Assembly: GCF_900564155.1 (NCBI RefSeq)
Contig: NZ_LS999839.1
Span: forward strand, 4,833,097-4,897,096
Length of the DNA stretch: 64,000 nucleotides
Reading direction: 5' to 3'
DNA from: Pedobacter schmidteae
Lineage (GTDB): Bacteria; Bacteroidota; Bacteroidia; Sphingobacteriales; Sphingobacteriaceae
Position numbers and translations under genes: made by a program. Below, piece after piece: positions 26,566 to 54,001 of this stretch. The notes below the pieces were generated by a model that saw only the letters and a program-made list of their open reading frames with translations, did no database searches and was not told the origin of the DNA. Each line of letters opens with the position of its first letter. Position 1 is the stretch's first letter.

Positions 26566-26588
26566 TGTAAGTGATGTAGCGAAGCTAT
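26566..26588 (+). promoter_or_regulatory. ops-like leader element upstream of upxY (copy 1)
   Basis: This 23-nt site, TGTAAGTGAT followed by GTAGCGAAGCTAT, matches 53979-54001 (- strand) at 21 of 23 positions. It can fold as TGTAGC-GAA-GCTATG with two wobble pairs. Its GTAGCG core equals the core of the RfaH ops site (GGCGGTAGCGT). It lies 53 nt before the start codon of the NusG/UpxY-family gene and after the Wzc stop. Confidence 0.65.
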
Positions 26589-26641
26589 GTATTTTTCATG
26601 GTAGTGTTGCCAATTGCCTTTGTAATCTAAAAATTCTCGAT

Positions 26642-27175
26642 ATGGAAAATCAATTAGGATCCAGTTATATCTGGACCAGACGATGGCTGGTTGTTTATAC
26701 TCGTCCGAGGTGGGAAAAAAAAGTAGACAGATTGTTAAAAGGGCAGAATATAAAATCTTACTGTCCGGTTAGACAGGTTACAAACCAATGGGCCGATAGA
26801 AAGAAGGTGGTAGAACTTCCTCTTTTTAGCGGGTATGTATTTGTATGGGTCAATGAACGTGAGGAATATAAAGTGAGACAAACTTTAGGTGTATTGAATT
26901 TTATCTATTACATGGGAAAACCTGCTGTAATTAGAGACAATGTGATAGAAAAAATTGAAAATCTAATGAAAATACATACGGATTATGAAGTTATAAATTC
27001 CCGGGATATAAATCTTGGCGATCGGATACGGATTAAAAATGGGATTTTTTACAATCAGGAAGGAACTGTTATTAAAGTGTGTGGTAAAACTGTATTGATG
27101 GTTTTTGATCATTTAGACTGTGCCCTGGTTAGTAATGTCCCCATATCTGATATCATGTTGAATACGGCAATATAA
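26642..27175 (+). CDS. UpxY/NusG-family transcription antiterminator
   Basis: Encodes 177 residues: NGN domain at ~10-115 (RRWLVVYTRPRWEKKVDRLL, ELPLFSGYVFVWVNE, LNFIYYMGKPAVI) and a KOW-containing C-terminal domain (LGDRIRIKNGIFYNQEGTVIKV). It matches the UpxY class that prevents premature termination in Bacteroides capsule operons and is related to RfaH. It is separated from wzc by a leader with the ops-like element, and an almost identical element occurs in the leader of the - strand biosynthesis arm. It is therefore likely to act on both arms. Confidence 0.92.
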   Translation: MENQLGSSYIWTRRWLVVYTRPRWEKKVDRLLKGQNIKSYCPVRQVTNQWADRKKVVELPLFSGYVFVWVNEREEYKVRQTLGVLNFIYYMGKPAVIRDNVIEKIENLMKIHTDYEVINSRDINLGDRIRIKNGIFYNQEGTVIKVCGKTVLMVFDHLDCALVSNVPISDIMLNTAI

Positions 27176-27222
27176 TTCTGCTTGCCCCACGAACCAATTT
27201 CACAACAATAAATTTCAAAGCA

Positions 27223-28389
27223 ATGATTCCTGTAACCAAACCTTTTCTTCCAAAGGAAGAAGAATTTAAAGCTTATATTGATAGCATTTGGGAACGTCAA
27301 TGGCTTACCAACAACGGCCCTTTGTTGAGCGATCTTGAGATAAAACTCAAAGAATATCTAAATGTAAAGCACCTTCTGTATGTTTGCAACGGCACTTTTG
27401 CATTACAATTAGCCATCAGAGCCTTACAGCTTACTGGCGAAATCATTACTACACCATTTTCGTATGTTGCAACTACAAGCAGCATTGTATGGGAAGGTTG
27501 CAAACCTGTGTATGTTGATATAGATAGTGAAACATTCAATATTGACCCTTCAAAAATAGAAGCCGCAATTACTTCACATACTTCAGCTATATTGGCTACA
27601 CATGTTTATGGGAATCCATGTGACATAGATGCAATTCAACAGATAGCCGATAAGTATGGGTTAAAGGTTATTTATGATGCGGCACATTGCTTTGGTACCA
27701 AATACAAGCAAAAATCTGTATTTGAATACGGAGATATCAGCACCACCAGCTTTCATGCGACTAAATTATTTCATACGATTGAAGGCGGTGCCGTGTTTAC
27801 AAAAGATCCTGATCTGTTAAAACGAATGTTGTTTATGCGCAATTTTGGACATAGTGGGCCTGAAACCTTTGAAGGGCTTGGTGTAAATGGCAAGAATTGT
27901 GAATTTCACGCTGCAATGGGTTTATGCAACCTGAAATACGTGGATCAAATACTGGAAAGAAGAAAAATGCTCTCGTTGCATTATTTTGAAAAACTAAAAA
28001 ATGTTAAAGCCAAATTTCCAAAGCTAAATCAGGATGAAGATTACAATTATGCATATTTCCCGATACTATTCGAATCGGAACAGATGAGACAAAAGTGTGT
28101 AGAGCAGCTTGAACTGGCGAAAGTATATTGCCGACGGTACTTCTCGCCATCGCTGGCTACCCTACCCTATGTAAATCAGAAGGAGATGCCCGTATGTGAT
28201 GATATCGTAAAGAGAATAGCATGTTTGCCGCTCTACCATAGCTTAACACTTCCTGATCTGGATATGATTTGTCGTACTATCCAAAGGGTACAAAACTACG
28301 AACTCCCAGATGCAACAGAAAAAGAAAACTTTGGAATGCAAATAGCTAAGAAAATTGAGACAGAAATCAACATTCTGGTAAAAAAATGA
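27223..28389 (+). CDS. DegT/DnrJ/EryC1/StrS family sugar aminotransferase
   Basis: Encodes 388 residues. Fold-type I PLP enzyme: the internal aldimine lysine is Lys181 in TSFHATKLFHTIEGG, with KVIYDAAHCFG providing the Asp that contacts PLP and ITTPFSYVATTSSI the substrate-side loop. It converts a nucleotide-linked keto-sugar to an amino-sugar for the polysaccharide. It likely uses the product of the 4,6-dehydratase at 31499-33451. It starts 47 bp after upxY. Confidence 0.88.
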   Translation: MIPVTKPFLPKEEEFKAYIDSIWERQWLTNNGPLLSDLEIKLKEYLNVKHLLYVCNGTFALQLAIRALQLTGEIITTPFSYVATTSSIVWEGCKPVYVDIDSETFNIDPSKIEAAITSHTSAILATHVYGNPCDIDAIQQIADKYGLKVIYDAAHCFGTKYKQKSVFEYGDISTTSFHATKLFHTIEGGAVFTKDPDLLKRMLFMRNFGHSGPETFEGLGVNGKNCEFHAAMGLCNLKYVDQILERRKMLSLHYFEKLKNVKAKFPKLNQDEDYNYAYFPILFESEQMRQKCVEQLELAKVYCRRYFSPSLATLPYVNQKEMPVCDDIVKRIACLPLYHSLTLPDLDMICRTIQRVQNYELPDATEKENFGMQIAKKIETEINILVKK

Positions 28390-30879: not shown

Positions 30880-30902
30880 TTTTTAATTTTACATCCACCT
30901 TG

Positions 30903-31498: not shown

Positions 31499-33451
31499 TT
31501 AGTTAATGATGTAATAATCGATCTTTTCATACCTGGAGTTTTTGCTTTTATAGTCGGGTATGATTTCTTTCATTTTTTTGACCATATCAAAGTCATTGTT
31601 TAAATTATTGAGCCTCAACAGCTCTTCAATTACGTCCTGTACGTATCGGAAACTATGGCTTATGATCTTTGATATTTTAATTTTAGGGTGATAGGTAGCC
31701 ATATTTTGTTCCTCTACCATCAACAATTCTTCATACAGTTTTTCGCCGGGCCGTAAGCCTGTAAATATTATTTTAATATCTTTCTCCGGAGCAAGCCCTG
31801 CCAGTTTGATCATATTGATAGCCAGGTCTACAATTTTAACCGGCTCGCCCATATCAAATAGATATATTTCTCCGCCATTTCCCATTGCGGCAGCCTCAAG
31901 CACCAGTTGTACAGACTCAGGAATCGTCATAAAATACCGTGTAATTTCAGGATGGGTAACAGTAATGGGGCCACCACGTTCTATCTGAGCCTTAAATCGT
32001 GGTAACACAGAGCCATTAGATCCTAATACATTACCAAATCGGGTGGTAATAAATTTGGTTTTGCTTTCTAACCTTTCATTCGTTCCATTTACTTTTTCGC
32101 CCGAAATATTCAAAACCTTATCATTGTTAAGAGATTGAATATACATTTCGGCCAAACGTTTAGATGCACCCATAATATTGGTCGGCTTTACTGCTTTGTC
32201 GGTAGATATCATGATAAACTTTTCTACCGCCGACTCAATGGCCAGATCGGATATATTTTTTGTTCCAAGTACATTGGTGAGTATGGCCTCTGAAGGATTA
32301 TTTTCCATCATGGGAACATGTTTGTAAGCTGCTGCATGGAAAATAATCTGCGGGTGATATTCATCAAAAATGGCTTTCATTCTGCTTCTGTTTTGGATAT
32401 TTGCCATAACGATATGGGTTTTGGCCCCAGGAAAATCATCCTCAATTTCGAGCTGCAGTTCGTGTAAGGGAGTTTCTGCCTGATCGCAAAGCACCACATA
32501 CTGTGGGCTGAAATTGATGACCTGACGTACAATTTCCGACCCAATTGAACCGGCCGCTCCGGTGATTAAAATCCGTTTTCCATTGATCTCTCTTAAAATA
32601 TTATCCTTGGATAATACTATGGGCTCGCGATGCAGGAGGTCCTCAATCTTCAGGTCTTTGATTTGATTTGCAGTTAATTTGCCGTACAGCCATTTATCCG
32701 ACTGTGGAACCGTAAGCACCTTGATTCCCATTTCAATGCATTTATCTATAGTAGATTTCTTTCCATTTATGCTCAGATCATCACCCACGAACAGGATTTT
32801 TTTAATATTAAATTTATCTTTCAGCAGCGTTATAGAGTTGGAGTGATATACCTTTTTTTGTTCAATTTGCTTGTTTATTTTATCCTGATTGTCATCAATA
32901 AAAGCAAACACATTTAAGGCACTTGCCTTACTATCATCAAGTGCTTTTTTGACCAGCATAGAGTCTGTATCTGAACCATATATCAGGATATTTTCCTTCT
33001 TATCGCATGGTTCCATTGTTTTGATATAGCTAAACAAATTTTTCACGGCCACTCTTAGAATAACCAAAAGCGATGAGGAAACAAAAAAGTTCATGATCAT
33101 GATTTCAGGAAACCATTTTGAAGAAATAGTATAATGAGAAATCAAAAAAACGCGACTTAAGATTGTAAACACAAAACCCGTGAGCAGAATGGCCATAAAC
33201 ACACGAATTATGTCTTCAGTATTAGAATACCTGATGATACCGGTGTGTATACGCATACTTATAAATACACCAACTGCTATAAAACTATATAGGCCGGCAT
33301 AGATAAAAAAATTAGCAAGAAACAGCTGTTCATAGTCAAATTTATTAATCAGCAAAAAAGACATGAAGAGTGTCCAGGCTACTATAACCTGATCAATCAA
33401 TAAGATTAACCAACGTGAATAAATTTTTTCACGGAAGAGAAGCTTTGTCAT
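31499..33451 (-). CDS. Membrane-bound nucleotide-sugar 4,6-dehydratase (PglF/WbpM/CapD-like)
   Basis: Encodes 650 residues. Four N-terminal membrane helices (about 12-36, 44-66, 82-102, 117-137), a CoA-binding-like Rossmann domain (NILIYGSDTDSML near residues 154-166) and a C-terminal SDR dehydratase with TGAAGSIGSE (297-306) and STDKAVKPTNIMGASKRLAEM. It forms 4-keto-6-deoxy sugars from UDP-HexNAc, the precursor for the aminotransferases in the + arm. It is the last gene of the - arm; the stop lies 114 bp from the HTH start. Confidence 0.93.
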   Translation of the reverse strand: MTKLLFREKIYSRWLILLIDQVIVAWTLFMSFLLINKFDYEQLFLANFFIYAGLYSFIAVGVFISMRIHTGIIRYSNTEDIIRVFMAILLTGFVFTILSRVFLISHYTISSKWFPEIMIMNFFVSSSLLVILRVAVKNLFSYIKTMEPCDKKENILIYGSDTDSMLVKKALDDSKASALNVFAFIDDNQDKINKQIEQKKVYHSNSITLLKDKFNIKKILFVGDDLSINGKKSTIDKCIEMGIKVLTVPQSDKWLYGKLTANQIKDLKIEDLLHREPIVLSKDNILREINGKRILITGAAGSIGSEIVRQVINFSPQYVVLCDQAETPLHELQLEIEDDFPGAKTHIVMANIQNRSRMKAIFDEYHPQIIFHAAAYKHVPMMENNPSEAILTNVLGTKNISDLAIESAVEKFIMISTDKAVKPTNIMGASKRLAEMYIQSLNNDKVLNISGEKVNGTNERLESKTKFITTRFGNVLGSNGSVLPRFKAQIERGGPITVTHPEITRYFMTIPESVQLVLEAAAMGNGGEIYLFDMGEPVKIVDLAINMIKLAGLAPEKDIKIIFTGLRPGEKLYEELLMVEEQNMATYHPKIKISKIISHSFRYVQDVIEELLRLNNLNNDFDMVKKMKEIIPDYKSKNSRYEKIDYYIIN

Positions 33452-33463
33452 AGTGTTAAAAAT

Positions 33464-34531
33464 TTAGATTGCCAACAATTGAACCCAGGTACAGGCCAGC
33501 GTATTAACTACAGCACGATAGAGCGGAAAAAAATCAATGTCAGCGTCCCTATCAATTCCCTGTTTATCAACCAACGCATGATAGACTGGTTGATTAGCCA
33601 CATATCGCCAGCTTTTGTATTCCAAAAGCATATCCGAGAAGCCTACTTTCCAGTTAAACAGTGTATCTTCTTTAAATCCATATCCTCCGCCCAAATGAAA
33701 ATATTTCATACCCAACCTACGTCCCAGAATGCTAACTTCGTCTATTAAAAATTTTGCTGGTGAAGTAGAAATATAGTTAGCTGTAGTAGCTACCAAATGT
33801 CCCTGTATAATACCGCATGTGCAGGTAATGATAATGCCACAAATTATCTTTTCATTGAGGTAGACTAATATAAGTCTACAATCAAATTCATCATTATTAA
33901 TGAGATCTATAAAATATTGTTTATTAAAAAAGTAATAATCAGCAGCACCAATCCTGGCCATGTTTTGAGTATAGATATCAAAAAAAGATTCGATATCATC
34001 CAGTTCCTTACTTTCCTTAACAGAATATCCATAGTCGCGTGCCTTTTTTACACTCTTTAGTGTATTTTTTCTATACTTTTTGCGTTGTTCTTCAATAGGT
34101 ATAGTTAAGTCTATGGCTACAGTTTTTCCATTTTCATAAACACCACCAAATTTTTCAATGAGCAGGTATTGATTAAAAAAAGGATTTAACCTGGAGAACA
34201 CAGAAATGTTTTGCTCCTGATCTAAAAATTCTAAAAAGGCTTCCTTAAAATTATCCATTAAACTTTCGTTCAGGTCTTCGAACTTTCGGTTAGATATGGG
34301 CCCGGGATATCCGTACACGGATATCAAATCAGAAAAAGGAGAACCTGATATTTCTCTTTTAACTAAAGGAAAAGCGATATAGTCATTTTCTTGTTCGTAT
34401 ACAAAAAGGAATGGTTCTCCACTTACATCCATAGAGTGATAAAGCCAGGTATGATAAAAATCGTATTCTACAGAACCATTTACATAGGCGGTCCATTGTT
34501 CCTTATTAAGAATGGTGATTAATTTTCTCAT
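33464..34531 (-). CDS. FemAB-like acyl/aminoacyltransferase (copy 2)
   Basis: Encodes 355 residues. The YGYPGPISN block (~residues 74-82) and the downstream SVKKARDYGYSVKES, GIIITCTCGIIQGHLVATTANY and GMKYFHLGGGYG segments match the FemAB-related GNAT-fold (Acetyltransf_6). It is a paralogue of 35968-36999. Such enzymes transfer amino acids or acyl groups to amino groups of sugars or peptides. It sits between the GNAT gene and the dehydratase, so modifying an amino-sugar of the polysaccharide is a reasonable guess. Its C-terminus extends 12 residues beyond its paralogue. Confidence 0.78.
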   Translation of the reverse strand: MRKLITILNKEQWTAYVNGSVEYDFYHTWLYHSMDVSGEPFLFVYEQENDYIAFPLVKREISGSPFSDLISVYGYPGPISNRKFEDLNESLMDNFKEAFLEFLDQEQNISVFSRLNPFFNQYLLIEKFGGVYENGKTVAIDLTIPIEEQRKKYRKNTLKSVKKARDYGYSVKESKELDDIESFFDIYTQNMARIGAADYYFFNKQYFIDLINNDEFDCRLILVYLNEKIICGIIITCTCGIIQGHLVATTANYISTSPAKFLIDEVSILGRRLGMKYFHLGGGYGFKEDTLFNWKVGFSDMLLEYKSWRYVANQPVYHALVDKQGIDRDADIDFFPLYRAVVNTLACTWVQLLAI

Positions 34532-34568
34532 AACATCTTGAATTTTAAAGTTAAACCGCAGATAAAAA

Positions 34569-35063
34569 TCAATTATCTGGTGTAAACATATGTTTGGTCA
34601 ATACCATTTTAATGTGCTGATCTTGTTTACCAACCGTAACAAAACCCAAATTTTCATAGATGGAGAGTGCTGCGGCATTATCTTCGTGGGTAAAGAGAAA
34701 GACACTTTCCAGATTTTTTGCAAAAAAACCGTATTCAAGAATGAGTCTGGAAGCCTGTTTTCCTATTCCTTTGCCCCAAAACTGTTTTTCTCCGATGAAC
34801 ATATGGAATTCACCGCGGTGTTCATCCAGATCTATCAATTGGATATTTCCAATATACTGATCGGTATCCCGCAGACAAATAGCAAACCTGCTGTCATTTG
34901 CTTTATTCAATTTACCTCGAAGCCATTCTGTTTCTTTTTCCAACGTGATATCAGTGCTGGGCTTAAATTCGGTATACACCCATATATCAGGGTCATTACG
35001 CCATTGATAGGATATCTTCGCATCCTCTAAATTTAAGGGTCTCAAATAGATGGTCGTATTCAT
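34569..35063 (-). CDS. GNAT family N-acetyltransferase (RimJ/PseH-like)
   Basis: Encodes 164 residues from the ATG at 35063 (MNTTIYLRPL), the usual start of this family. An ATG at 35111, overlapping the previous stop, would add 16 atypical residues. The acetyl-CoA loop is GEKQFWGKGIGKQASRL (Q/RxxGxG/A type), with VFLFTHEDNAAALSIYENLGF downstream. In PseH-like enzymes this architecture N-acetylates 4-amino-sugar nucleotides, consistent with the aminotransferases in the locus. It lies between the PhyH gene and FemAB-like copy 2. Confidence 0.85.
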   Translation of the reverse strand: MNTTIYLRPLNLEDAKISYQWRNDPDIWVYTEFKPSTDITLEKETEWLRGKLNKANDSRFAICLRDTDQYIGNIQLIDLDEHRGEFHMFIGEKQFWGKGIGKQASRLILEYGFFAKNLESVFLFTHEDNAAALSIYENLGFVTVGKQDQHIKMVLTKHMFTPDN

Positions 35064-35113
35064 AATATTTTGTTTAAAAACACTGTTACTTAATTTTTCA
35101 TCAAAAAGCATCC

Positions 35114-35917
35114 TCAACCCTGACCAGGTTGATACATTCTTAAATGAGGAGGCTGATAAAATTCCTGAAGATTGGCAGAAATACGGGCGTTGTATCCAAT
35201 AACTTGTCTTAAATGCGGACTTAGGCCTTCGCCAAATTCGTAGCCTAAAAACCTTGGAAAATCAAACTGAGGTTTAAAGAATGGCCTTGTAAAAGTGAGG
35301 GTTAAACCACGCCTAGGGCTATCGGTATTGTTGTTACCAGCTGCGTGCCATATATTGGAATCAAATAAAATAATACTTCCCCGTTTACCTACCGCCCTTT
35401 CGGCTTGCTCGTAAAAAAATTCCTCGTCTGGTGGATTTGCATGCTTGTGAGAGCCTGAAAGGAAGTAGGTAGCTCCATTATCAACTGTATAATCGTCCAA
35501 CAATACGATCATTTGGATGGCTATTTTAAAATCACCTGTAAAGCTTCTGATATCACGATGAATATTGTGTACATAGGCTTTGAAATTTTTAAAATTCAGC
35601 ACACCACTTATTCCGTTAATAATATAATTGCCATTCAGAAAATGTCTCATTTCTTTATCACAATACTGTTGCTCCAAAAAAGGCATACTAAAATTATCTC
35701 TTTCCAGCAGATGATGAAGTGTTCCTTCCATATTGGTTTCGATACCATTTTGGATTTGGATTTCTCTCCTTAATAAATAAGCAGGCTCAAGGTCATTAAT
35801 GATTTTATCGAGCATTTTTTCATCAACGGCATCCTCATAAATGACCCAACCAAATTGATCCATTGCATTCTCGAAGTCAGCTATCGTTGCTTCGGAATAG
35901 ATAAATTTATTTTTCAA
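35114..35917 (-). CDS. Phytanoyl-CoA dioxygenase (PhyH) family Fe(II)/2-oxoglutarate oxygenase
   Basis: Encodes 267 residues with a double-stranded beta-helix. The iron ligands are visible as HRDIRSF (HxD) and a later WHAAGNN (His), followed by RRGLTLTFTRPF which supplies the 2-oxoglutarate Arg. The DFENAMDQFGWVIYEDAV N-terminus is typical. It should hydroxylate a small molecule or acyl/aminoacyl group; bacterial homologues act on free or carrier-bound substrates. It is wedged between two FemAB-like paralogues and a GNAT gene inside a polysaccharide locus, an unusual place. Confidence 0.87.
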   Translation of the reverse strand: MKNKFIYSEATIADFENAMDQFGWVIYEDAVDEKMLDKIINDLEPAYLLRREIQIQNGIETNMEGTLHHLLERDNFSMPFLEQQYCDKEMRHFLNGNYIINGISGVLNFKNFKAYVHNIHRDIRSFTGDFKIAIQMIVLLDDYTVDNGATYFLSGSHKHANPPDEEFFYEQAERAVGKRGSIILFDSNIWHAAGNNNTDSPRRGLTLTFTRPFFKPQFDFPRFLGYEFGEGLSPHLRQVIGYNARISANLQEFYQPPHLRMYQPGQG

Positions 35918-35967
35918 AACAAAAAAATTAGTGGTTTAATTTAAATTGACTTTTATCCTTTATATTT

Positions 35968-36999: not shown

Positions 37000-37040
37000 G
37001 ATAAATTAGAAATTTTAATAGATCCGGAACCGTTATTTAT

Positions 37041-38189: not shown

Positions 38190-38385
38190 AATACACAGAT
38201 ATTGAAAACATGAATCAATATTGAAACTATTCAGCGATACCTGATTCATAGGGACAATCAAGCGCTTGTGTCAATTAATATTATCAACAAAAGACTTATC
38301 GATGAATAAAATATATTAAGATATTCCGTAGTATACGGATGGCGAAACCGGAGAGAAAGTAGCGGCAATAAAAGATATAATGATC

Positions 38386-38427
38386 AAAAAACATTTAAGC
38401 TACCTGCTTATGCTGGTAGCTTAAATG
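38386..38427 (-). terminator. Terminator after pectate lyase gene
   Basis: CATTTAAGCTACC (38392-38404) pairs perfectly with GGTAGCTTAAATG (38415-38427) around a 10-nt loop; on the - strand six Ts follow. It lies 68 bp after the lyase stop codon, isolating the lyase from the downstream glycosyltransferase. Confidence 0.8.
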
Positions 38428-38494
38428 AGTTGGTTTGGAAATACAGACCGTCTATTTAACTTATCAGGTCAAAATATTTATCCAGTTTTTTATA

Positions 38495-39898: not shown

Positions 39899-39941
39899 TA
39901 ATAACTTTGTTTTTTAAAATACGCTTTTTAAACGCAGGGCT

Positions 39942-41247: not shown

Positions 41248-41298
41248 AATGTTTAGTTTAAGTGATTATTTATGCAAGTATTAAATCCGATAAAATGC

Positions 41299-43170: not shown

Positions 43171-43214
43171 TCTTCTTAAATCTTAAGCGTAAAACATAAA
43201 TGCAAGCTTCAATA

Positions 43215-44327: not shown

Positions 44328-44372
44328 TTCGTTATTTAATTCCAGGGGTTCATTGCCTGGCACAAGCAAAAC

Positions 44373-45263
44373 TTAAGATCGCTGGTAAAGAACCTTTTTT
44401 AAGAGTCTATGTATTGGGGTGATTACAGAGTGCCTCCTTCTTTTTCCATCAACTACGATAAGGTTTTCTCCGAAACTGATGTTGTGCATTCCTTCTAAAT
44501 AGGGGGCTTCCGGGGACAATTCAAAATCCAATTCGAACTTAAAATCTTCTTCAGAAAGCTCAGAAATTCTATTCACAATAATAGAACCACCATAACGGAC
44601 TTCAAGATTCTGCGTAGGCCTGTAAAGTACATTGTCGACAATAAATAAATTACCTGCACCTCTGCAATTTTTCAACCCCACGGATATCGGATTTAATCTA
44701 TGAGCCACAAATTCATTCTCCAAAGAGTCCGAATAATATATATAAATATCATTCAACTCCCCATCTATGTTGGTAAACAGCCAATATTTGCCTTTGTAGT
44801 AAATAATCGAACTATCCACGTACCGAGCACCGCCGAGTAGTACTTTTTTTTTTGTCAATTCTGCGCAGTTTTCCTGGTTTACCTGGTAAAGACTCACTTC
44901 GCCTGCATCTGCCGTCTCTGGGATGCAATAAAAGACGGATTTTTCTTCAAAAATATAGGGATAAGAAAAATGAATTTTATGAGGGGTAAACCCTGTTACC
45001 GTCCTTTTAGTACTAAAATCAAAATTTTTAATCTGCGATATTCTCCCTTTTATTTTCCAAAAATTAAGTTCTTCGTAGTAGATATAGAGGTTTGATTTGA
45101 TATTTACCACAAAAGGATCAGCGGAATAATCAGCTTTATCTTCTTTAAGCCAAAGTACCTCTCCGTCAAACCCCTTTCTTTTCACCAGGTCTCCCACCGA
45201 TTGTTTTACGAAACCAATATTCCATTTATCGGCTCCAAAATATCTATCAATAACTTTATACAT
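44373..45263 (-). CDS. Beta-propeller domain protein (GINT1 N-terminal-like)
   Basis: Encodes 296 residues. The repeated short strand motifs (YSADPFVVNIKSNLYIYYEE, GARYVDSSIIYYKGKYWLFTN, DIYIYYSDSLENEFVAHRLNP) indicate a five-bladed GH43-like propeller. It resembles the N-terminal domain of glucosamine inositolphosphorylceramide transferase 1, which in bacterial loci occurs next to formyl- or glycosyltransferases. No full catalytic triad is certain. It overlaps the upstream glycosyltransferase by 8 bp (start inside its end), so the two are tightly coupled. Role in recognising or processing the repeat unit is inferred. Confidence 0.6.
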   Translation of the reverse strand: MYKVIDRYFGADKWNIGFVKQSVGDLVKRKGFDGEVLWLKEDKADYSADPFVVNIKSNLYIYYEELNFWKIKGRISQIKNFDFSTKRTVTGFTPHKIHFSYPYIFEEKSVFYCIPETADAGEVSLYQVNQENCAELTKKKVLLGGARYVDSSIIYYKGKYWLFTNIDGELNDIYIYYSDSLENEFVAHRLNPISVGLKNCRGAGNLFIVDNVLYRPTQNLEVRYGGSIIVNRISELSEEDFKFELDFELSPEAPYLEGMHNISFGENLIVVDGKRRRHSVITPIHRLLKKVLYQRS

Positions 45264-46383
45264 GGTTATTATTTATAGAATTAGTACCATAGATTAGTGT
45301 GTGCTTGTTACCAGATGCTGCAATATGATACTTCAATTTAAATTCATGTATGCTGTTTTCACTGATCTCCGACTTATTTGGATAGAGTATTGCATTTTTT
45401 ATCGTCTGACAATAAGCATCCACACTGCTATCTTCACTTAAAAAACCGTTATAGCCATTATCAATCATATCATTGATGCCACCTACCCTGGTACAAATTG
45501 GGATACAACCTACAGACAATGCTTCAATTAGAGAAATGGGCATCCCCTCATAGAAGCTAGATAGACAGAAAAAATCGGCCAAAGCCAGGTAGTCGGCAAT
45601 ATTGTCTTTTCCTCCTAAAAAATCAATGTATTCATCTGTTCCCACCAGATCAAGAAGTTCCTGGTACAAAGCCTCGTCGCGAACTTCCCCTATCAATAAC
45701 AACTTACATTTTTTATAGGCCTGGGCATTAAATTTTTGTACCGCTTCAATTAATAGCCGCTGGTTTTTTACTTTTATAACTCTTCCAACATGAATTAAAA
45801 GAAAACAAATGGTACCTAGCTTATATTTTTTGACCAGGTCGGGATATTCATTTGTCATTTTTAAAAATGGTCTTCCGTTTTGAATCACCAACACGTTATC
45901 TAGCTTGTAATATTTTATAAATGATTCCTTCCCGTTGTGGGAAACAGCTATGGGCGTTATTAAGTTCCTTTTGTAAAGACCTTTACGTAAAGTCTTAATT
46001 AAAAGCCCGGGACACTCGGCTTCTGCTGTAGAATGAATAGTATGAAAAAATCTGGCCTTTCTATTTCTAAACCGGTATAAAAGCAAATATTCCAAAGCAT
46101 TTAAGTGTGTATGAATTATTTCTGCTTTTTGCTTTACCAGCCATGAGGTCAATCGCAAAAGTACACGTAAACTGAATCCATTGCCTTTATGGAAAGAAAC
46201 ATAATTTACTTCTTCGCTAATTTCTTCAAGAAAAGCCGTGTCTGCATCATTGGCACACAATGAAACCAGGTATACTTTATATAGTTCATTCCGGGCCAAC
46301 TCATTACATAAATCAATCACAAAACGCTCGGCACCACCTCTTCCTAGTACGCCTATAATATGTACTATTGTTACTTTGTTCAT
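45256..46383 (-). CDS. GT4-family glycosyltransferase
   Basis: Encodes 375 residues. GT-B: IIGVLGRGGAERFVIDLCNELA at the N-terminus, HVGRVIKVKNQRLLIEAV, and SSFYEGMPISLIEALSVGCIPICTRVGGINDMI with E-x7-E. Adds one sugar of the repeat unit. Overlaps by 8 bp with the following propeller gene and starts 16 bp after the methyltransferase stop. Confidence 0.89.
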   Translation of the reverse strand: MNKVTIVHIIGVLGRGGAERFVIDLCNELARNELYKVYLVSLCANDADTAFLEEISEEVNYVSFHKGNGFSLRVLLRLTSWLVKQKAEIIHTHLNALEYLLLYRFRNRKARFFHTIHSTAEAECPGLLIKTLRKGLYKRNLITPIAVSHNGKESFIKYYKLDNVLVIQNGRPFLKMTNEYPDLVKKYKLGTICFLLIHVGRVIKVKNQRLLIEAVQKFNAQAYKKCKLLLIGEVRDEALYQELLDLVGTDEYIDFLGGKDNIADYLALADFFCLSSFYEGMPISLIEALSVGCIPICTRVGGINDMIDNGYNGFLSEDSSVDAYCQTIKNAILYPNKSEISENSIHEFKLKYHIAASGNKHTLIYGTNSINNNHV

Positions 46384-46399
46384 GATTTACAATTAATAG

Positions 46400-47077
46400 T
46401 TATTTTTCTGCCACACCAATCAATATGTAATGCAATTTTCTCGGAAGTATTTTCTCTACTATATTATCTATCCTTCCCAGAAAATTTCTTTGCATCTCGT
46501 TTCTTCCCATACATCCAAAGAAACCTACGGTAGTGAATGTGATTTTTTTATAGGATTGAAAAATAGTTCTGATTTCATTCATCCTGATGTAATTCCAGTG
46601 TGGTGTTCCAAATTTTTTCCGAAGCATTTTATGGATCAGGGATGCTTCCAGGTTTTCAGCAAAAAAGAGTTTTCCTCCCGGTTTTAGTGCTTTATATATT
46701 TCATCTAACGTTTTTAATTTGTATTCATCATGGCAATTTTGACTTATCCCTCCAAGTATTGATTTAAATGCAACAATGTCAAAATGATTTTCAAAAGGGA
46801 TATTTGTAGCGTCCATCGGCGCATATTGAATACGGGAACTGCATTTATATTTTTTGTGCATTTTACGCGCTGCAGCTTTCGGTTCATTAATATCGGTACA
46901 CAATACTCTATTTTTATTCAGTGATAGCCATAGTGATAATCCGCCATTGGCTGCACCCAATTCCAGGCAGGTATATTTCTTATTTTTTATAGGGGTGCTT
47001 TTCTCCCAATATTCAAGTGCCTTAGCCCAATTTACAACGTCCCATTGAATAATCTCTTTGATGGTTTCATTTATCAT
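46400..47077 (-). CDS. Class I SAM-dependent methyltransferase
   Basis: Encodes 225 residues. SAM-binding motif I is CLELGAANGGLSLWLS (near residues 38-53), then VLCTDINEPKAA (motif II acidic) and IAFKSILGG-type post-motif; LKPGGKLFFAENL follows. It may O-methylate a sugar of the polymer or the chain end. It lies 27 bp after the Wzy-like gene. Confidence 0.83.
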   Translation of the reverse strand: MINETIKEIIQWDVVNWAKALEYWEKSTPIKNKKYTCLELGAANGGLSLWLSLNKNRVLCTDINEPKAAARKMHKKYKCSSRIQYAPMDATNIPFENHFDIVAFKSILGGISQNCHDEYKLKTLDEIYKALKPGGKLFFAENLEASLIHKMLRKKFGTPHWNYIRMNEIRTIFQSYKKITFTTVGFFGCMGRNEMQRNFLGRIDNIVEKILPRKLHYILIGVAEK

Positions 47078-47104
47078 AATTGCGGTAGTTTATGTTGAAT
47101 ACTA

Positions 47105-48331
47105 TTAGTCAATCACTACACCTGACTGTTCCTGAACTACTTTGTTTTTTTGAATACTGGCAAAGTGAAGAATACTGAAATACAAGAATAAGGTAGGTCC
47201 GTCGGCACTAACCAACCAGCCATTATGAGAAAGCGCGTTGATGGAAACAGCCAAAAAAGAAAAGCACAAACAAATTATTAATGCGTTTTCCTTATGTTTT
47301 ATCTTTCGTAGTCCGTTTATAAATATTTGCCCAACCCTATAATACAAGAAAATGAGCAGGCCCAGCCCAAAAAATGGCCCCAGATAGGTAAGAAACATTA
47401 AATAAGCATTATGTGAAGTCAAACCAAAAGGGAATACATGGTTCCGGTAAGTAACATCACTCCAGTTTTTGCCATAAAAAATCAGGCCAAATGGATAATC
47501 GGCATATATTTTCAGGTTCTCTTCTGAAAGTCCCACCCGGTTATAATAATTAGCATTCTTTGCCTCATTTTTTGCAAGGATATTATTTTTGGTATCCAGA
47601 TTATCTTTTACCACAAATGCATAAAACATTGCGCCAATTAGTACGGCGGTAACTACCATTAAGATCGATTTATAGCGATAATAACAAATGAGAAACAACA
47701 AAGAAGAACTTAAAAAAGTGATCAGGACCGATCTGTTCATTCCGAGGTAAATAAAAATAATGCATACAAAAAGCGCAATTATCTTTATCAAAAAATTCAT
47801 ATTGAAAGCACATGTAAAAATAAAAACAAATGAAACCAGGGCAGCTAACTGGTAACCATAGTTAAATTGTGTTAGTGCCAATCCAGCCGGACTTTGCATT
47901 ACCTTATCATCCAAAAGTGTTCCCCTTAAATCATCTATTTCAGCGGGGTAAAAATGATTTAAAACCATGATAACCGCTGATATGAACAGTAATACAAAAA
48001 ATACCAAAACAGAAAGGTTGAACCTTCGGGTATTATAGCCTACGAAGTAATTAAAATAGGCTATACAAAATAAAATAACTATCAATGTGGCAAAAAAAGA
48101 TATGTTATCAGACATTCCAATAAAATCATACAAAAAAAGAGAGATCAAGAAAAGTGCAGCTTCCCTGCCATATAAAAAAGGGATTCTACCTTCTTTGAAG
48201 AAAAGTATAAGTGGCAAACAGAAAACCATCGGTGCAGGAATTCTGAAAATCGCAGTCATGAAGATTCCAAATGACAAGGTATAGATATACCCCATCATCA
48301 TTGTCATTACAAATAGCTTTTTGAGCAACAT
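47105..48331 (-). CDS. Multi-pass O-antigen polymerase-like protein (Wzy)
   Basis: Encodes 408 residues, strongly hydrophobic with about ten predicted membrane helices and one larger periplasmic loop (~residues 235-300, DNLDTKNNILAKNEAKN and SEENLKIYADYPFGLIFYGK). Such a profile, with the loop and NHVFPFGLTSHNAYLMFLTYLGP, is typical for the Wzy polymerase/O-antigen ligase superfamily. It is the only polymerase candidate of the locus. Sequence conservation in this family is low, so the call rests on topology and place. Confidence 0.82.
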   Translation of the reverse strand: MLLKKLFVMTMMMGYIYTLSFGIFMTAIFRIPAPMVFCLPLILFFKEGRIPFLYGREAALFLISLFLYDFIGMSDNISFFATLIVILFCIAYFNYFVGYNTRRFNLSVLVFFVLLFISAVIMVLNHFYPAEIDDLRGTLLDDKVMQSPAGLALTQFNYGYQLAALVSFVFIFTCAFNMNFLIKIIALFVCIIFIYLGMNRSVLITFLSSSLLFLICYYRYKSILMVVTAVLIGAMFYAFVVKDNLDTKNNILAKNEAKNANYYNRVGLSEENLKIYADYPFGLIFYGKNWSDVTYRNHVFPFGLTSHNAYLMFLTYLGPFFGLGLLIFLYYRVGQIFINGLRKIKHKENALIICLCFSFLAVSINALSHNGWLVSADGPTLFLYFSILHFASIQKNKVVQEQSGVVID

Positions 48332-48348
48332 GATTAAATGTATTTGTA

Positions 48349-48945
48349 TTATCTGAGCATTATTTTTTTAAGCGTAAGAAAGATAATAGTAAGATCCACC
48401 CAGATTCCATGCTTATGAATATATTTCAGGTTTTGAATAATTTTGGACGGAATGATCTCTTTTATATAGAAATTTTCAGGATCATCCGACGTAGCCAACA
48501 ATGCATTTTCATTTGAAAATTCAATAGATGCCCAATCTGTAATTCCAGGCTTGAGGGAAAGAATCATTTGTTGTTGTTCATCATATAACTCTACGTATTT
48601 TTTTACTTCCGGCCTGGGGCCTACAAAACTCATATCTCCTTTTAATACATTAAGGAGCTGAGGCAATTCATCTATTTTATATTTTCTAAGCCAGCAACCT
48701 ACCCTGGTTATTCGTCTATCATGATCACCAACAGTTAATAAGCCCGCTTTATCAGAGTCGATATACATAGTTCTGAATTTTATCAATTCGAAATCTACCC
48801 GGTTTCTGCCGACACGCATTTGTTTGTAAAAAACATTTCCTTTGGAGTCCATAGCGATCAATACCGAGACCATCAAAAACAGCGGCAACAGAAATATAAT
48901 TCCCAACAGGGCAATTATAAAATCGAAAATTCTTTTTGCATACAT
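48349..48945 (-). CDS. Initiating phosphoglycosyl transferase (bacterial sugar transferase)
   Basis: Encodes 198 residues from the ATG at 48945 (MYAKRIFDF); a TTG at 48957 is possible but atypical. Small monotopic PGT of the PglC type: hydrophobic re-entrant helix IIALLGIIFLLPLFLMVSVLI, KFRTMYIDSDK, DELPQLLNVLKGDMSFVGPRPE (catalytic Asp-Glu context) and LKPGITDWASIEFSNE. It transfers a phospho-sugar to undecaprenyl phosphate, the first step of repeat-unit assembly. It lies between the GT4 gene and the Wzy-like gene. Confidence 0.92.
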   Translation of the reverse strand: MYAKRIFDFIIALLGIIFLLPLFLMVSVLIAMDSKGNVFYKQMRVGRNRVDFELIKFRTMYIDSDKAGLLTVGDHDRRITRVGCWLRKYKIDELPQLLNVLKGDMSFVGPRPEVKKYVELYDEQQQMILSLKPGITDWASIEFSNENALLATSDDPENFYIKEIIPSKIIQNLKYIHKHGIWVDLTIIFLTLKKIMLR

Positions 48946-49008
48946 AACCAGTTTCAATTAAAATACTTCATCATAACCCAGCAGCCATATTTGAGCTTTA
49001 AAGTGTTT

Positions 49009-50109
49009 TTACTGCGCGCTTAGTATTAATTTCTCCCATTTTGAAGTAATCACTTCCTGGGAATTTGTTTGATTTATCAACTTTGCGGATTCAGACAATT
49101 TGCCCTTGAGTAGCGCATTATTTAAAACTTCTGACATCGATTCGGCCAACATTAAAATGTTTTTATCTTCTACAAGTACACCATTCAACCCATTTTCAAT
49201 AATTTCAGATGGGCCAAATTCACAATCCATTGCAATACTTGGACATCCCATACTCATTGCTTCAATTAAAGCATTAGGATATCCCTCGTTTCTTGAAGGG
49301 AGTACAAATAATTCTGCCTGTCCATAATAATCCTGTAAATTCTCTTTTGCCCCAATTAGCACAACATGATCAGATAAATCCAGTTCTGCAATTTTGGCCA
49401 TTAAATTTTCACGCTCATTTCCATCACCGGCAATAATTAAATCAATGTCCCTTTTTTGCATTTTACTGTAGGCTTCTATTAGCTGGTCAAATCCTTTCTC
49501 GTAAGAAAGACGACCCACACCAAGAATAAATTTGCGATGATGAACACGCTGAGATCCGGGCGGATTAAATACATTCACATAATTTTTAATCAAAGAAAAA
49601 TTATTAAGCTTCCGGAAAGATTTGTTTTTTTTCAAACAATTTTCCATTGCTTTTGCCGGTATTACGATGGCTTTAGATTTACGATAGAGCATAAAAGAAA
49701 TCCATTTTAAGAAGAAATTAAACCGATTTATTGTGTGATCTGGTGTGGTACGTTCCGACACAATGAAAGGAATGCCAGTTAAACAACAGGTTAGTCCGGT
49801 CCAAAGGTTTGCGGATGTCATAAAAGAAATTACACATCCCGGTTTCTCTTTAATCAGTAAATACAGGAGCTTAAAAAATGTAATTATGCCAAACCACAAT
49901 CTAAAAAGCACATTATCGTTATTGTTCCTTTTAGTGAGATAAATTACCTCTACACCTTCTTCTAAACGGTAAACAGGTGTACTATAGTTAAGGCAAACAA
50001 TGGTCACCCGGAACCCTTTCTTACTAAAATAATTCCCAAGATTGGTCACCACGCGCTCTGCTCCGCCGGCGGTAAGCGCATTAATTACAAAGAAAAGTTG
50101 AAGTTTCAT
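49009..50109 (-). CDS. GT4-family glycosyltransferase (canonical paralogue)
   Basis: Encodes 366 residues. LTAGGAERVVTNLGNYFSKK, VSERTTPDHTINRF, FILGVGRLSYEKGFDQLIEAY, PSRNEGYPNALIEAMSMGC and GPSEIIENGLNGVLV are all intact GT4 signatures. It is the sister of 28446-29558, which has lost several of these residues. Transfers a sugar to the growing lipid-linked unit. It lies 59 bp after the GT2 gene. Confidence 0.9.
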   Translation of the reverse strand: MKLQLFFVINALTAGGAERVVTNLGNYFSKKGFRVTIVCLNYSTPVYRLEEGVEVIYLTKRNNNDNVLFRLWFGIITFFKLLYLLIKEKPGCVISFMTSANLWTGLTCCLTGIPFIVSERTTPDHTINRFNFFLKWISFMLYRKSKAIVIPAKAMENCLKKNKSFRKLNNFSLIKNYVNVFNPPGSQRVHHRKFILGVGRLSYEKGFDQLIEAYSKMQKRDIDLIIAGDGNERENLMAKIAELDLSDHVVLIGAKENLQDYYGQAELFVLPSRNEGYPNALIEAMSMGCPSIAMDCEFGPSEIIENGLNGVLVEDKNILMLAESMSEVLNNALLKGKLSESAKLINQTNSQEVITSKWEKLILSAQ

Positions 50110-50168
50110 ATCCGCTAAATGATCACTGTCAGTAACATTAGGATAAATACAATTTTTAAACTTATTGG

Positions 50169-51035
50169 TTAAAGCAGAAGATGTCTGATGGTATTAAAGG
50201 CGTTGTTAATTTGTAGCTTTCGAATGTCATGACGCAAATATTTCCTGGAATAAACTTTTAATAATTTCCATTTCAAATAAGAAGGATATTTAAAGCTGTT
50301 GATAATGATATTGAAATCGAATAATTCTCTACCTCTGATTTCATAGGGGTCTACCATACTCCAGATTCCCCCTCTATGCTTCCTATAACAGCTCATAACT
50401 TCTGGCATCACGTAAATCTTTTTACCTGTAACCCCGGTTGCGTATAACTTCAAAAACTTATCCGGAGCATGACATTTAATGTACCAATCCTGGTTGCGCA
50501 TATGATTAACGTCCAAACTTGTTCTGTATATTAATGTCGCTGTAAAAGTCTCATCTTTGTTCCCTTGTAAAATATCTTCATAACCAAATTCAAGACTTAC
50601 CGGATTAGGATTTACATACAGACTTTTGCCATGCTCATCAATAATTTCTGAATAGTGACAGCAAATTATATATTCCGGATGTGTTTCCATAAAATCAATT
50701 TGCTTTTGAAGTTTATATGGATCAGTCCAGAAGTCATCTCCTTCACACATGGCCATATATTTACCCTTGGCTTGTAAGGCTATTCGATCGAAATTATTCT
50801 TTAGGCCAACATTGTGTTCGGAGGTAACCAGTTTGATAATCTCAGGGTATTTTTTCTGGTACTCTTCCACAATCTTTCGGGTTCCATCAGTAGAACAATC
50901 TTCTCCAATTAAAGCTTCAAACTTAAACGTCGTTTTCTGCATTAAAAACCCTTCAATTGCCTGGGCAATATACTGTTCATGATTAAAGGTTAGACAGCTA
51001 ATACTAACCATCATTTCTTCATTATTTGTCTCCAT
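50169..51035 (-). CDS. GT2-family glycosyltransferase
   Basis: Encodes 288 residues. GT-A fold: MVSISCLTFNHEQYIAQAIE, LIGEDCSTDGTRKIVEEYQ (nucleotide-binding Asp), and AMCEGDDFWTDPYKLQKQID with the DxD-like EGDDFW. IWSMVDPYEIRG and a basic C-terminus follow. Adds a sugar at the cytoplasmic face. First glycosyltransferase after the flippase in this operon order. Confidence 0.89.
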   Translation of the reverse strand: METNNEEMMVSISCLTFNHEQYIAQAIEGFLMQKTTFKFEALIGEDCSTDGTRKIVEEYQKKYPEIIKLVTSEHNVGLKNNFDRIALQAKGKYMAMCEGDDFWTDPYKLQKQIDFMETHPEYIICCHYSEIIDEHGKSLYVNPNPVSLEFGYEDILQGNKDETFTATLIYRTSLDVNHMRNQDWYIKCHAPDKFLKLYATGVTGKKIYVMPEVMSCYRKHRGGIWSMVDPYEIRGRELFDFNIIINSFKYPSYLKWKLLKVYSRKYLRHDIRKLQINNAFNTIRHLLL

Positions 51036-51104
51036 ATAAATAATTTATTTTTATCGCCAACAAAAGTTCATCATATCAAACTGACAGTCAAAGTACTTAC
51101 TTAT

Positions 51105-52553
51105 CTACTGGTATATTCTTTTGAAGATCAATTGTATAAAATCTACAATAGCAGATAGTTTTAACAGAAAACTTAAAGCAAAATAACCTGCGAAATAAGC
51201 GAGGCCAACAACTATAACTCTGGATAAATCATTAAAGTTGAAAGAAAAAAGCAATTTGTCTAAAAAATAACCGCTTATGCCTATTAATCCGGAAACACAT
51301 AAGGTAGGTAGAATGTCCTCAATTTGTTTAACAAAAGGGTAGTCTATAAGTTTAACGGTATAAACGGAGTTGATATAGAAACTAAAGAAGCTAAAAAACA
51401 ATTGAAAATACAACAATCCATAAATGCCAAATGGGAAAGCGCAAATAATACCGGCAACACAAAGTACTTTTTTTATAATTTCTAATTTCAAAAACAAATT
51501 ACTGTGTCCTTTTACTTTTAAAATATTCAGATTAAAGGAATTAATTGGGTACATGATGCCAGAAATACACATAATTTGAAAATACGGGACAGCAGGTAGC
51601 CACTTATCAGTTAGCATGAGTCTAAACAGTGGTTCTGCGATAACACTTAAAGCCACTAAAGATGGCGCCATCCAAAAAAGTACCTGTAGCATTACCTTTC
51701 TATATACATTTACAAGTTGTTCTTTATTGTTTGCTATTTTAACGAACATTGGAAATGTAACCTTATTTACTGCAGAGGATATGATCCCTATTGGAAGTTG
51801 ACTAATTGTATCTGCTCTGGAATAAAACCCCAGTTGAGCGGGGATATAAAATTTACCAATAATTATGGTATAAATATTCTGATATAGTTTATCTATCAAC
51901 CCAGATAATGTGAGTTTATAGCCATAATGAAAGTGATTTTTAAAACTAGTAAGATCAAATAACATGATCGGTCGCCATTTAGAGAAATACCAATGTAATA
52001 CTGTAGATATAAATGAATTAAGTAAACTCATCCAAACCAGGCTCCAAACTCCAAAACCCAGTCGGGCCAAAATAATTCCTAAAATACCGCCACCTACAAC
52101 CGAGGGTAACTGAATGGCGGTCATTGTTTTGAATCTCATCTCTTTAACCAGAAGAGTCTGCTGAATTCCATAAAATGCATTAATAATCAATGAAATACCA
52201 TAAACTCTAACAATATTTATCAATACAGGTTGATTATAAAAAGCAGCTATAAGAGGGGCCGAAAAAAACAAAATTGCGTATATGACGATACTGCCAATCA
52301 AATTAAAATAGAAAACGGTAGAACAATCTTTTTGTGTTACTTCGATGGTACGCACTAATGAAGAAGTTAATCCTCCATCCAATAAGGAATTCCCAACAGC
52401 TATAAAAATTGACAGCATGGCTATCAAACCGAACTCTGCCGGTGATAAGATCCTGGCAAGTACAATGGTGATAAAAAAGCCGATGAATTTGGAACTCAAC
52501 TCCTGACCGACCGACCAAAAAACACCGTAAACCGTTTTTCCTTCCAGATCCAT
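51105..52553 (-). CDS. Wzx-like flippase (MOP superfamily, PST family)
   Basis: Encodes 482 residues with about 12-14 membrane helices. The N-terminus (LEGKTVYGVFWSVGQELSSKFIGFFITIVLARILSPAEFGLIAM) is the standard start of the polysaccharide-transporter family. It moves lipid-linked repeat units across the inner membrane for polymerisation by the Wzy-like protein. The stop of the dehydrogenase gene lies 4 bp upstream, so translation is likely coupled. Confidence 0.92.
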   Translation of the reverse strand: MDLEGKTVYGVFWSVGQELSSKFIGFFITIVLARILSPAEFGLIAMLSIFIAVGNSLLDGGLTSSLVRTIEVTQKDCSTVFYFNLIGSIVIYAILFFSAPLIAAFYNQPVLINIVRVYGISLIINAFYGIQQTLLVKEMRFKTMTAIQLPSVVGGGILGIILARLGFGVWSLVWMSLLNSFISTVLHWYFSKWRPIMLFDLTSFKNHFHYGYKLTLSGLIDKLYQNIYTIIIGKFYIPAQLGFYSRADTISQLPIGIISSAVNKVTFPMFVKIANNKEQLVNVYRKVMLQVLFWMAPSLVALSVIAEPLFRLMLTDKWLPAVPYFQIMCISGIMYPINSFNLNILKVKGHSNLFLKLEIIKKVLCVAGIICAFPFGIYGLLYFQLFFSFFSFYINSVYTVKLIDYPFVKQIEDILPTLCVSGLIGISGYFLDKLLFSFNFNDLSRVIVVGLAYFAGYFALSFLLKLSAIVDFIQLIFKRIYQ

Positions 52554-52557
52554 GGCC

Positions 52558-53856
52558 CTATAATCGGAAATCTACAGCTTCATCAGGAAACAGCGATTTT
52601 ATATCATAAATCACTGTATTTTTTTTACATAATTTTTTTAAATCAATCGTCTTAAATTCCTGATGAGCAACAGCCAATAGTATCCCATCATATTTCCTCG
52701 TTTTTGATTCCCCATTTTCACATATAATTCCGTATTCATGTTTTGCATGTTGCACATTTGCCCAGGGGTCGTGAACAGTTACAGTAACATTGTATTCTTT
52801 TAACCGATTGATGATATCAATCACCTTGGTGTTGCGCACATCGGGACAATTCTCTTTGAATGTAAAACCCAAAACCAGCACTTTCGCACCTATAATATGA
52901 GTATCCTTTTGAATCATTTGTTTAATCAGCTGATCGGCTACATAGGCCCCCATTCCATCATTAACCCGGCGTCCGGCTAAAATAATTTCAGGATGATATC
53001 CAACTTCCTGTGCTTTTTGTGCCAAATAATAAGGATCTACACCGATACAATGTCCACCAACTAATCCGGGTTTAAAGTTCAAAAAGTTCCATTTAGTCCC
53101 CGCAGCATTTAAAACTTCATTCGTATCAATGCCCAAACGATTAAAAATCATTGCCAGTTCATTAACAAACGCTATATTGATATCCCGCTGTGCGTTTTCA
53201 ATTATTTTGGCGGCTTCAGCTACCTTAATACTCGACGCTTTATGAGTTCCCGCCACAATGATAGACTTATATAACTGATCTACAATTTCAGCTACTTCAG
53301 GGGTGGAACCAGAGGTTATTTTGAGAATATTCGCGACAGTATGATTTTTATCGCCTGGATTAATACGTTCGGGAGAATAGCCGGCAAAAAAATCAACATT
53401 AAATTTCAAACCGGATATTTTAGCTAAAACGGGTACGCATTCATCTTCGGTAACTCCCGGATAAACGGTTGATTCATAAATCACGATATCCCCTTTCTTT
53501 AAAACTTTTCCAACAGCTGTACTTGCTTTGATCAAAGGTGATAAATCAGGTCGATTGTTTTTATCTACCGGAGTTGGTACAGTGACAATATATATAGAGC
53601 AGCTCTCAATTTTATTAAGTTCATTAGTACAGTACAGTCCTTTTGGTGTAGTACAGTCGTAAGTGAGTACATCTTTCAGGCTGCGCTCACTAATCTCCAA
53701 AGTTTGATCAATTCCTGAATTGAGTTCGGCTATACGGTTTTCATTAATATCAAAACCCAATACCTTATATTGCTTTGCAAACTCTACGGCTAAAGGTAGC
53801 CCCACATAGCCCAAACCAATAACCGCAATTTTTGTGTGTACGTTTAACATCATCAT
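52558..53856 (-). CDS. UDP-N-acetyl-hexosamine 6-dehydrogenase (WbpA/TviB-like)
   Basis: Encodes 432 residues; three consecutive in-frame ATGs mark the start. NAD domain [20 protein letters not shown] (~10-29), [15 protein letters not shown], and the catalytic loop [20 protein letters not shown] with nucleophilic Cys. [13 protein letters not shown] and the C-terminal [17 protein letters not shown] place it with UDP-HexNAc dehydrogenases rather than UDP-glucose dehydrogenase. Product: UDP-HexNAc uronic acid for the polymer. First gene of the - arm; its 122-nt proximal leader holds the second ops-like element. Confidence 0.9.
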
Positions 53857-53978
53857 AATTAATTATAGTCAATGGTGGTTTATTCTCTACAAATGGAAAA
53901 ACAGCAGTGAGTGGTATTAAGAAGGATAAATTTTATGCTTCTGGATGTGATAAAACTAAGTAAAAGATTTGCCTTCCT

Positions 53979-54001
53979 ATAGCTTCGCTATATCAGTTAC
54001 A
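53979..54001 (-). promoter_or_regulatory. ops-like leader element of the - arm (copy 2)
   Basis: Read on the - strand: TGTAACTGAT then ATAGCGAAGCTAT; it differs from copy 1 (26566-26588) at only two of 23 positions. It folds as TATAGC-GAA-GCTATA with six Watson-Crick pairs. Copy 1 has wobble pairs at the same places, so the stem is preserved despite change. It lies 122 nt before the first start codon of the - arm, a fitting place for an UpxY recruitment site. Confidence 0.65.

Follow-up and report, generated by a model that had tools for sequence, protein, structure and literature searches.

A 24-nt sequence element occurs twice in a 64,000-nt stretch of the Pedobacter schmidteae genome (contig NZ_LS999839.1, positions 4,833,097 to 4,897,096; "the window" denotes this whole stretch). 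One copy precedes upxY, which encodes a NusG-paralogous antiterminator, and the other precedes a long polysaccharide biosynthesis arm on the opposite strand. Comparison of genome sequences allows the element to be linked confidently to UpxY, and it is quite probably an ops-like loading site for the UpxY encoded at 26642-27175, which would control both arms. Because the element is defined to 24 nt, has a sharp register and is tied to UpxY in >100 genomes, it makes recruitment testable outside gut Bacteroides.

Co-occurrence of the element with UpxY

The two copies, TGTAAGTGATGTAGCGAAGCTAT (26566-26588, plus strand) and TGTAACTGATATAGCGAAGCTAT (54001-53979, minus strand), are identical at 21 of 23 positions. 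Each is in sense orientation to a polysaccharide operon, as a preliminary description of this DNA had stated, and copy 1 lies in the 115-nt gap separating wzc from upxY. Six Markov-simulated windows yielded 2, 3, 2, 1, 0 and 2 pairs of 23-mers with at least 21 matches, so that chance could account for the repeat taken by itself, and the case is made by genome comparison; a chance repeat, which could not be rejected from the window, was ruled out across genomes.

The window is part of a single 6.2-Mb contig, in which the exact core TAGCGAAGCTA occurs three times, the third occurrence (502510) lying within an open reading frame (ORF) and being taken as chance. With one mismatch allowed, 73 sites were found against 83 for the reversed control, so the short core alone is uninformative. 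The longer pattern TGKRANYNANNNRGCGAAGCY matched three times and its reverse not at all. Every match lies at a polysaccharide locus, rather than being scattered through the genome without such a link, the outcome that the preliminary description had named as telling against its proposal. The third site (1690994-1691014) is 3' of a second upxY and immediately 5' of a glycosyltransferase-like gene. At E <= 0.01, model R1 found only the two window copies, both of which are among its 29 training rows. UpxY regulons would be predictable from sequence, with three sites in the source genome.

Across 145 genomes of the genus, the UpxY protein was matched in 118 and TGKRANYNANNNRGCGAAGCY in 111, with three matches in total for the reversed control. 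The pattern was present in 110 of the 118 genomes with UpxY and in 1 of the 27 without (Fisher 1.3e-20), a comparison of genome-level presence, not of position beside upxY, in which seven unlisted UpxY-negative genomes were assigned by elimination. At 30 genus loci fetched with the pattern, UpxY lay within 1.5 kb in 27; of the other three, L183 is a second arm, L165 has UpxY about 1.5 kb away and L168 (genome G013) is unexplained. Extension to the family, the search of Sphingobacteriaceae that the preliminary description had called for, located the pattern in 183 of 351 genomes, representing 15 of 25 genera (10 reversed matches), with UpxY within 1.5 kb at 24 of the 30 loci fetched. The pattern is thereby linked to UpxY and to polysaccharide loci, and is nearly absent from genus genomes without UpxY. 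A class-wide pattern with a 4-nt spacer gave 12 matches in 11 of 247 genomes (reversed, 3), six with UpxY within 1.5 kb and six without.

The UpxY gene of the window sits in a polysaccharide operon, and its product scores 123.4 bits against NF033644 (cut-off 100; the genome's second UpxY, 144.4). It has an NGN domain, with PF02357 spanning residues 14-105, and a KOW-like C-terminal domain. The AlphaFold2 model has a mean predicted local distance difference test score (pLDDT) of 79.8, lower in the β-strand C-terminal part, and its best Foldseek matches are NusG and RfaH. By profile the protein is neither RfaH (71.8 bits, cut-off 144.5) nor LoaP (42.1 bits, cut-off 125), and its nearest named relatives are from Pedobacter. 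In Bacteroides, UpxY is known to act as an antiterminator at capsule loci (PMC7819879). UpxZ (PF06603) had no match in the source genome, but the control genomes were silent too.

Position and orientation at upxY loci

The locus sets compared here overlap, some of the 80 named loci coming from the same genomes as those with G numbers. The close-clade set comprised all 60 close-clade UpxY matches listed (E <= 5.2e-37), and the element was found by upxY in 59. In the first 30 of these loci it was always 5' of upxY, with two copies 72-86 nt apart in 14; in the other 30 it was 5' of upxY in 22, on the opposite strand 381-432 nt upstream in seven, and missing in one. The seven opposite-strand elements, all in one clade, precede in sense a divergent gene, which in six resembles a Poly_export lipoprotein by its N-terminus (with a Pfam table for L114).

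In a paralogue clade 24 of 29 loci had the strict form, which lay downstream of upxY in 23 and upstream in one. Twenty of the 29 were taken by score order (15 with the element) and the remaining nine all carry it, L149, L150 and L151 having been chosen because the element had already been seen there. The strict form was 5' of upxY in 74 of the 80 named loci (Pedobacter, Mucilaginibacter, Sphingobacterium, Chitinophagaceae and others), and it was found in 16 of 41 UpxY loci from other families of the class. The reversed-sequence control gave 0 in every locus set of the strict-form count. Over 139 loci (the second 30 close-clade, the 29 paralogue and the 80 named), 160 of 167 elements lay on the upxY strand. 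On a quick tree of 112 UpxY proteins, element location followed clade, with 19 label changes against 48.9 when shuffled, the labels being based on a looser pattern than the strict-form counts.

Where the next ORF was not upxY (n=66), it carried a glutamine amidotransferase domain in 24 cases (23 also with asparagine synthase), and was a glycosyltransferase group 1 in 10, a Poly_export protein in nine and a nucleoside diphosphate (NDP)-sugar dehydrogenase in seven, these seven being the chosen second-arm loci. Such unrelated families, a distance to the next called ORF varying from 0 to 649 nt and the near-absence of the element from genomes without UpxY make it highly improbable that this transcribed, oriented hairpin, often near start codons as it is, works without UpxY as an RNA leader that sets the stability or translation of the mRNA or attenuates the next gene. 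An Rfam scan of the window returned only a tRNA, with no family at gathering score for the element.

Variants of the arrangement were also seen. Mucilaginibacter gossypii and relatives (L354-L358) carry four to five tandem elements about 120 nt apart 5' of upxY, mostly with GGA loops. In L258, L259 and L260 the element lies 648-677 nt after upxY. In several families (L258-L260, L188, L192, L193, L278) it is found past a small gene or immediately in front of one, with upxY adjoining or not nearby; this gene is helix-turn-helix (HTH) by eye, with an N-terminus like M-L-x-T-L-I-T-S-K-T-R.

The second-arm copy in relatives

With both R1 and the pattern, a further site was found in G000, G012, G030, G038, G059, G076, G098, G114 and G128, some 26-28 kb from upxY and on the strand opposite to it; in G125 it is on another contig, and G053 has a single site. 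Of the 11 genomes whose UpxY is nearest (at least 78% identity), 10 thus have the second-arm copy. Gene context was read in the window and seven relatives (all but G030 and G114), and in these eight the copy stands ahead of the same nucleotide-sugar dehydrogenase, which in the relatives has 83.6-88.2% identity with that of the window. Ungapped comparison of the eight leaders gave a mean majority frequency of 0.94 in the element against 0.59 and 0.51 in the flanks.

The repeat ATCAG/CTGAT upstream of the hairpin is invariant in all eight leaders read, which leaves no covariation to score. The preliminary description had suggested that ATATCAG/CTGATAT in copy 2 could form a switch by alternative pairing. 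This was dropped, since the pairing reaches -18 to -12, clear of the three-pair hairpin at -11 to -3; the two are compatible, and the DNA fold contains both.

Two small, similar HTH proteins (30975-31394 and 54374-54811) flank the minus-strand arm, and a homologue of the latter adjoins the second-arm element in 7/7 relatives read. This adjacency would suit a duplex operator for a DNA-binding regulator such as these proteins. An operator of that kind is very unlikely, however, for an element that keeps to the upxY strand, is 3' of this gene in paralogue-clade loci and follows the presence of UpxY across the 145 genomes.

Anatomy of the element

The conserved block reads TGTRANTGA-N3-RGCGNAGCYNYR (R, purine; Y, pyrimidine; N, any base). 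In the register of its alignment to ops, it has G at -10, a pyrimidine at -1 and a purine at +1, a register that would fit a pause; the hairpin would then fall within the transcription bubble and TGTRANTGA in the double-stranded DNA behind it. Column statistics were taken from 226 distinct elements with 3-nt spacing, pooled from all fetched sets, with G-10 fixed by the search pattern. In the columns free in every search, Y-1 was found in 222 and R+1 in 213 of the 226 (G 85, A 128). Conservation stops at +1, no column from +2 onward holding more than 0.37 bits. At the loop position, 195 elements carry A and 31 carry G.

Genus and family loci fetched by pattern carry GAA, R-11 and Y-3 by construction; in 146 elements from loci found through the UpxY protein, only GCGNAGC was required, leaving -11, -7 and -3 free. 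In these 146, -11:-3 was A-T in 50, G-C in 45, G-T in 51 and nothing else, against 130.6 pairs expected, and 0/2000 shuffles were as high. Over all 226 elements, 223 have standard pairs at -11:-3 (205.5 expected). The six-pair stem described earlier can form in the two window copies alone, and it was rejected as a conserved feature: only RGC/GCY is kept over the 226 elements, and the covariation check on the outer pairs was negative, the fourth pair (-12:-2) being standard in 135/226 against 144.9 expected and in 105/146 against 110.4 in the protein-found loci. The ops-like core proposed with it was retained in a different register, RGC-GNA-GCYNYR aligning ungapped to GGCGGTAGCGTG, and the matching of TAGCG to the TAGCG of ops was abandoned.

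Exceptional stability is described in PMC4686876 for DNA loops of the GNA and GNNA kinds with two or more G-C pairs, which form mini-hairpins of the same unusual kind, and DNA GCGAAGC has a melting point of 78 degrees C. In DNA folding, copy 2 gave a clear hairpin (1/200 shuffles as good). The 22-nt window copies gave -4.5 and -4.1 kcal/mol as RNA against -1.2 and -2.8 kcal/mol as DNA; we assume that standard DNA parameters miss the stability of the GNA loop. With the 4-nt spacer, other families have GAA, GCA and GGA loops, and GTA occurs in Bacteroidaceae; loops other than GNA were looked for in one comparison only. Upstream, in the repeat YCA...TGR, -26:-15 switches between T-A (96) and C-G (27 of 226), so some lineages may add a nascent-RNA hairpin.

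This covariation, the better RNA folds of the 22-nt copies, the frequent G-T third pair (51/146), tolerated in RNA, and the precedent of LoaP, which binds a small RNA hairpin (PMC12691694), would also suit an element read by UpxY as nascent RNA rather than as non-template DNA. We hold that reading to be unlikely, given a kept stem of just three pairs, conservation that ends at the inferred +1, a UpxY well under the LoaP cut-off and a GNA triloop in place of UNCG. Copy 2, moreover, folds otherwise in a longer RNA context: over 61 nt, AGCUUC/GAAGCU is favoured, which would undo the mini-hairpin, a pairing impossible by eye in the other second-arm leaders read. Recognition of a DNA hairpin is the likely mode.

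Occurrence beyond the family

The element is, by sequence, found well beyond Pedobacter, and it may reach further than the strict form indicates. Four Bacteroidaceae UpxY loci, filed as plasmids, all have GCGNAGC near the upxY start (GTA in three, GAA in one), a count that leaves out three further UpxY-like matches from Bacteroidales. In three of the loci GCGNAGC lies, by eye, 14 nt after TGTGA, TGTGA and TCTGA, and 2/4 have the strict pattern once the search takes in the opening 90 bases of the longest ORF. In L379, L380 and L383 (2415-2500), GCGNAGC overlaps the N-terminus of the longest upxY ORF, as annotated in L379 and L380; the upxY start may have been called wrongly, or this sequence may have two roles.

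A single element for the whole class was rejected on the loci of families f5, f11 and f76. Loci of f5 and L219 (f11) have GCGAAGC or GCGTAGC without the box spacing, and in the Spirosoma locus L381 GCGCAGC comes with no box; none of these was counted. Nothing was seen in L280 and L298, which are cut by contig ends and stand outside the 41 class loci. Box plus GCGAAGC was absent from 19 UpxY loci outside the class, two of which (L235:2118-2156 and L246:9-47) have TGTGACTGA with GCGGAGC beside upxY, without the -11:-3 pair.

Features of the window

Table 1 Coordinates of the element copies and associated features, in window positions
Feature	Position	Strand	Basis or remark
Element copy 1 (-23 to +1), TGTAAGTGATGTAGCGAAGCTATG	26566..26589	+	Between wzc and upxY; R1 46.0 bits, R1 training row
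Upstream box TGTAAGTGA (-23 to -15)	26566..26574	+	Column counts, 226 distinct elements; several columns fixed by search pattern
Mini-hairpin core of copy 1, A-GC-GAA-GC-T (-11 to -3), GNA loop	26578..26586	+	-11:-3 pairing
Element copy 2 (-23 to +1), TGTAACTGATATAGCGAAGCTATA, preceding the long biosynthesis arm	53978..54001	-	R1 37.2 bits, R1 training row
Mini-hairpin core of copy 2, A-GC-GAA-GC-T	53981..53989	-	Sequence and DNA fold
Upstream inverted repeat ATATCAG-N9-CTGATAT	53990..54012	-	ATCAG/CTGAT in 8/8 second-arm leaders; DNA fold
UpxY-family antiterminator (NusG paralogue)	26642..27175	+	NF033644, PF02357, structure model
Wza-like export gene (23431-24192) and Wzz/Wzc-like gene (24217-26526)	23431..26526	+	Directly 5' of copy 1
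Biosynthesis arm 3' of copy 2; first gene (52558-53856) a nucleotide-sugar dehydrogenase	31499..53856	-	

An A-rich inverted repeat (30901-30956) lies where the two arms converge and is perhaps a two-way terminator. An imperfect direct repeat of about 160 bases (18908-19071 and 22779-22942), whose second copy extends into a tRNA gene (22918-22990, minus strand), possibly marks the ends of an inserted segment with a TonB-receptor-like gene, called by eye.

Proposed mechanism and comparison with known systems

From these comparisons we infer UpxY binding, pausing, DNA-strand recognition and antitermination. With RNA polymerase at the site, RGCGNAGCYNYR would lie within the transcription bubble and act as a pause, and the exposed non-template DNA would fold into the GNA mini-hairpin (GC-GAA-GC) and be read by UpxY, which would also read the TGTRANTGA box, then in double-stranded DNA behind the polymerase; the two conserved blocks lie at positions fitting bubble and upstream duplex. 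UpxY would then remain on the polymerase and prevent early termination through long sugar-making operons. At copy 1 it would control its own operon, and at copy 2, which is on the opposite strand at a distance of 27 kb, it would control the 22-kb biosynthesis arm in trans. The earlier proposal of a recruitment element for the neighbouring UpxY, common to both arms, finds support in co-occurrence, adjacency and polysaccharide targets.

Several observations weigh against this mechanism. Eight genus genomes with UpxY are without the pattern, and chance-like matches occur in G049, G120 and the UpxY-negative G061, with one common to G013 and G043. Of the class loci, 25/41 are without the strict form, including all of f5 (0/4), f11 (0/4) and f76 (0/5), and Y-1/R+1 fails by eye in 3/4 Bacteroidaceae loci. 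The covariation rests on one pair, with shuffles that ignore relatedness; it is clear in set A (63/63, 54.8 expected), marginal in the family set and not significant in the named set or set B, and three elements break the pair. The DNA fold of copy 1 is weak (23/200 shuffles as good), and the paralogue-clade element L122 has no structure (0 kcal/mol). A search for intrinsic terminators at 53700-54400 found none, and past copy 1 a single terminator-like site, within upxY, was found against 0.5 expected.

Recruitment of operon-encoded NusG paralogues was called unknown in a 2020 paper (PMC7593976). A search of titles and abstract openings found no literature on this element, by which absence from print is not claimed. 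As far as the literature found allows, the element would be known in kind, and new in form, reach and second-arm arrangement.

At a pause, Bacteroides UpxY reportedly makes use of the exposed non-template strand and of the duplex DNA upstream (Saba et al. 2024). The systems would share action in capsule-operon leaders and, in the Bacteroidaceae loci above, GCGNAGC near the upxY start; they differ in that here one UpxY would serve a second operon 27 kb away. With LoaP of Bacillus the element would share a small leader hairpin as recruiter of a NusG paralogue. LoaP is recruited by a small UNCG RNA hairpin in the dfn leader, with no discernible pause (PMC12691694), whereas the UpxY element has a GNA core.

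The closest likeness is to ops, used by RfaH in Escherichia coli. Both are short transcribed sense sites before long surface-polysaccharide operons, few per genome, and the element, like ops, would be used by a NusG paralogue; in the ungapped alignment to RGCGNAGCYNYR the 12-nt ops consensus has G-10, T-1 and G+1. According to PMC5995543, RfaH reads ops as a non-template hairpin closed by C3:G8, the only pair of that hairpin held to form in the elongation complex, and the pause register is T11-G12. By the rule given in PMC4686876, GC-GGTA-GC in ops is a GNNA mini-hairpin. The element differs in its GNA triloop (GGTA in ops), so that the ops consensus is not matched, in the conserved upstream box at -23 to -15, in tandem copies and in the UpxY family of its protein. 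By this comparison ops and the UpxY element may be two forms of a single unusual DNA shape recognised by RfaH and UpxY alike. More tentatively, and with the balance tilted against it, a GC-GNA/GNNA-GC non-template mini-hairpin might be a common signal for specialised NusG proteins (GGTA in ops; GAA, GGA, GCA and GTA for UpxY), with clade-specific flanks and one UpxY serving several operons in trans across much of Bacteroidia.

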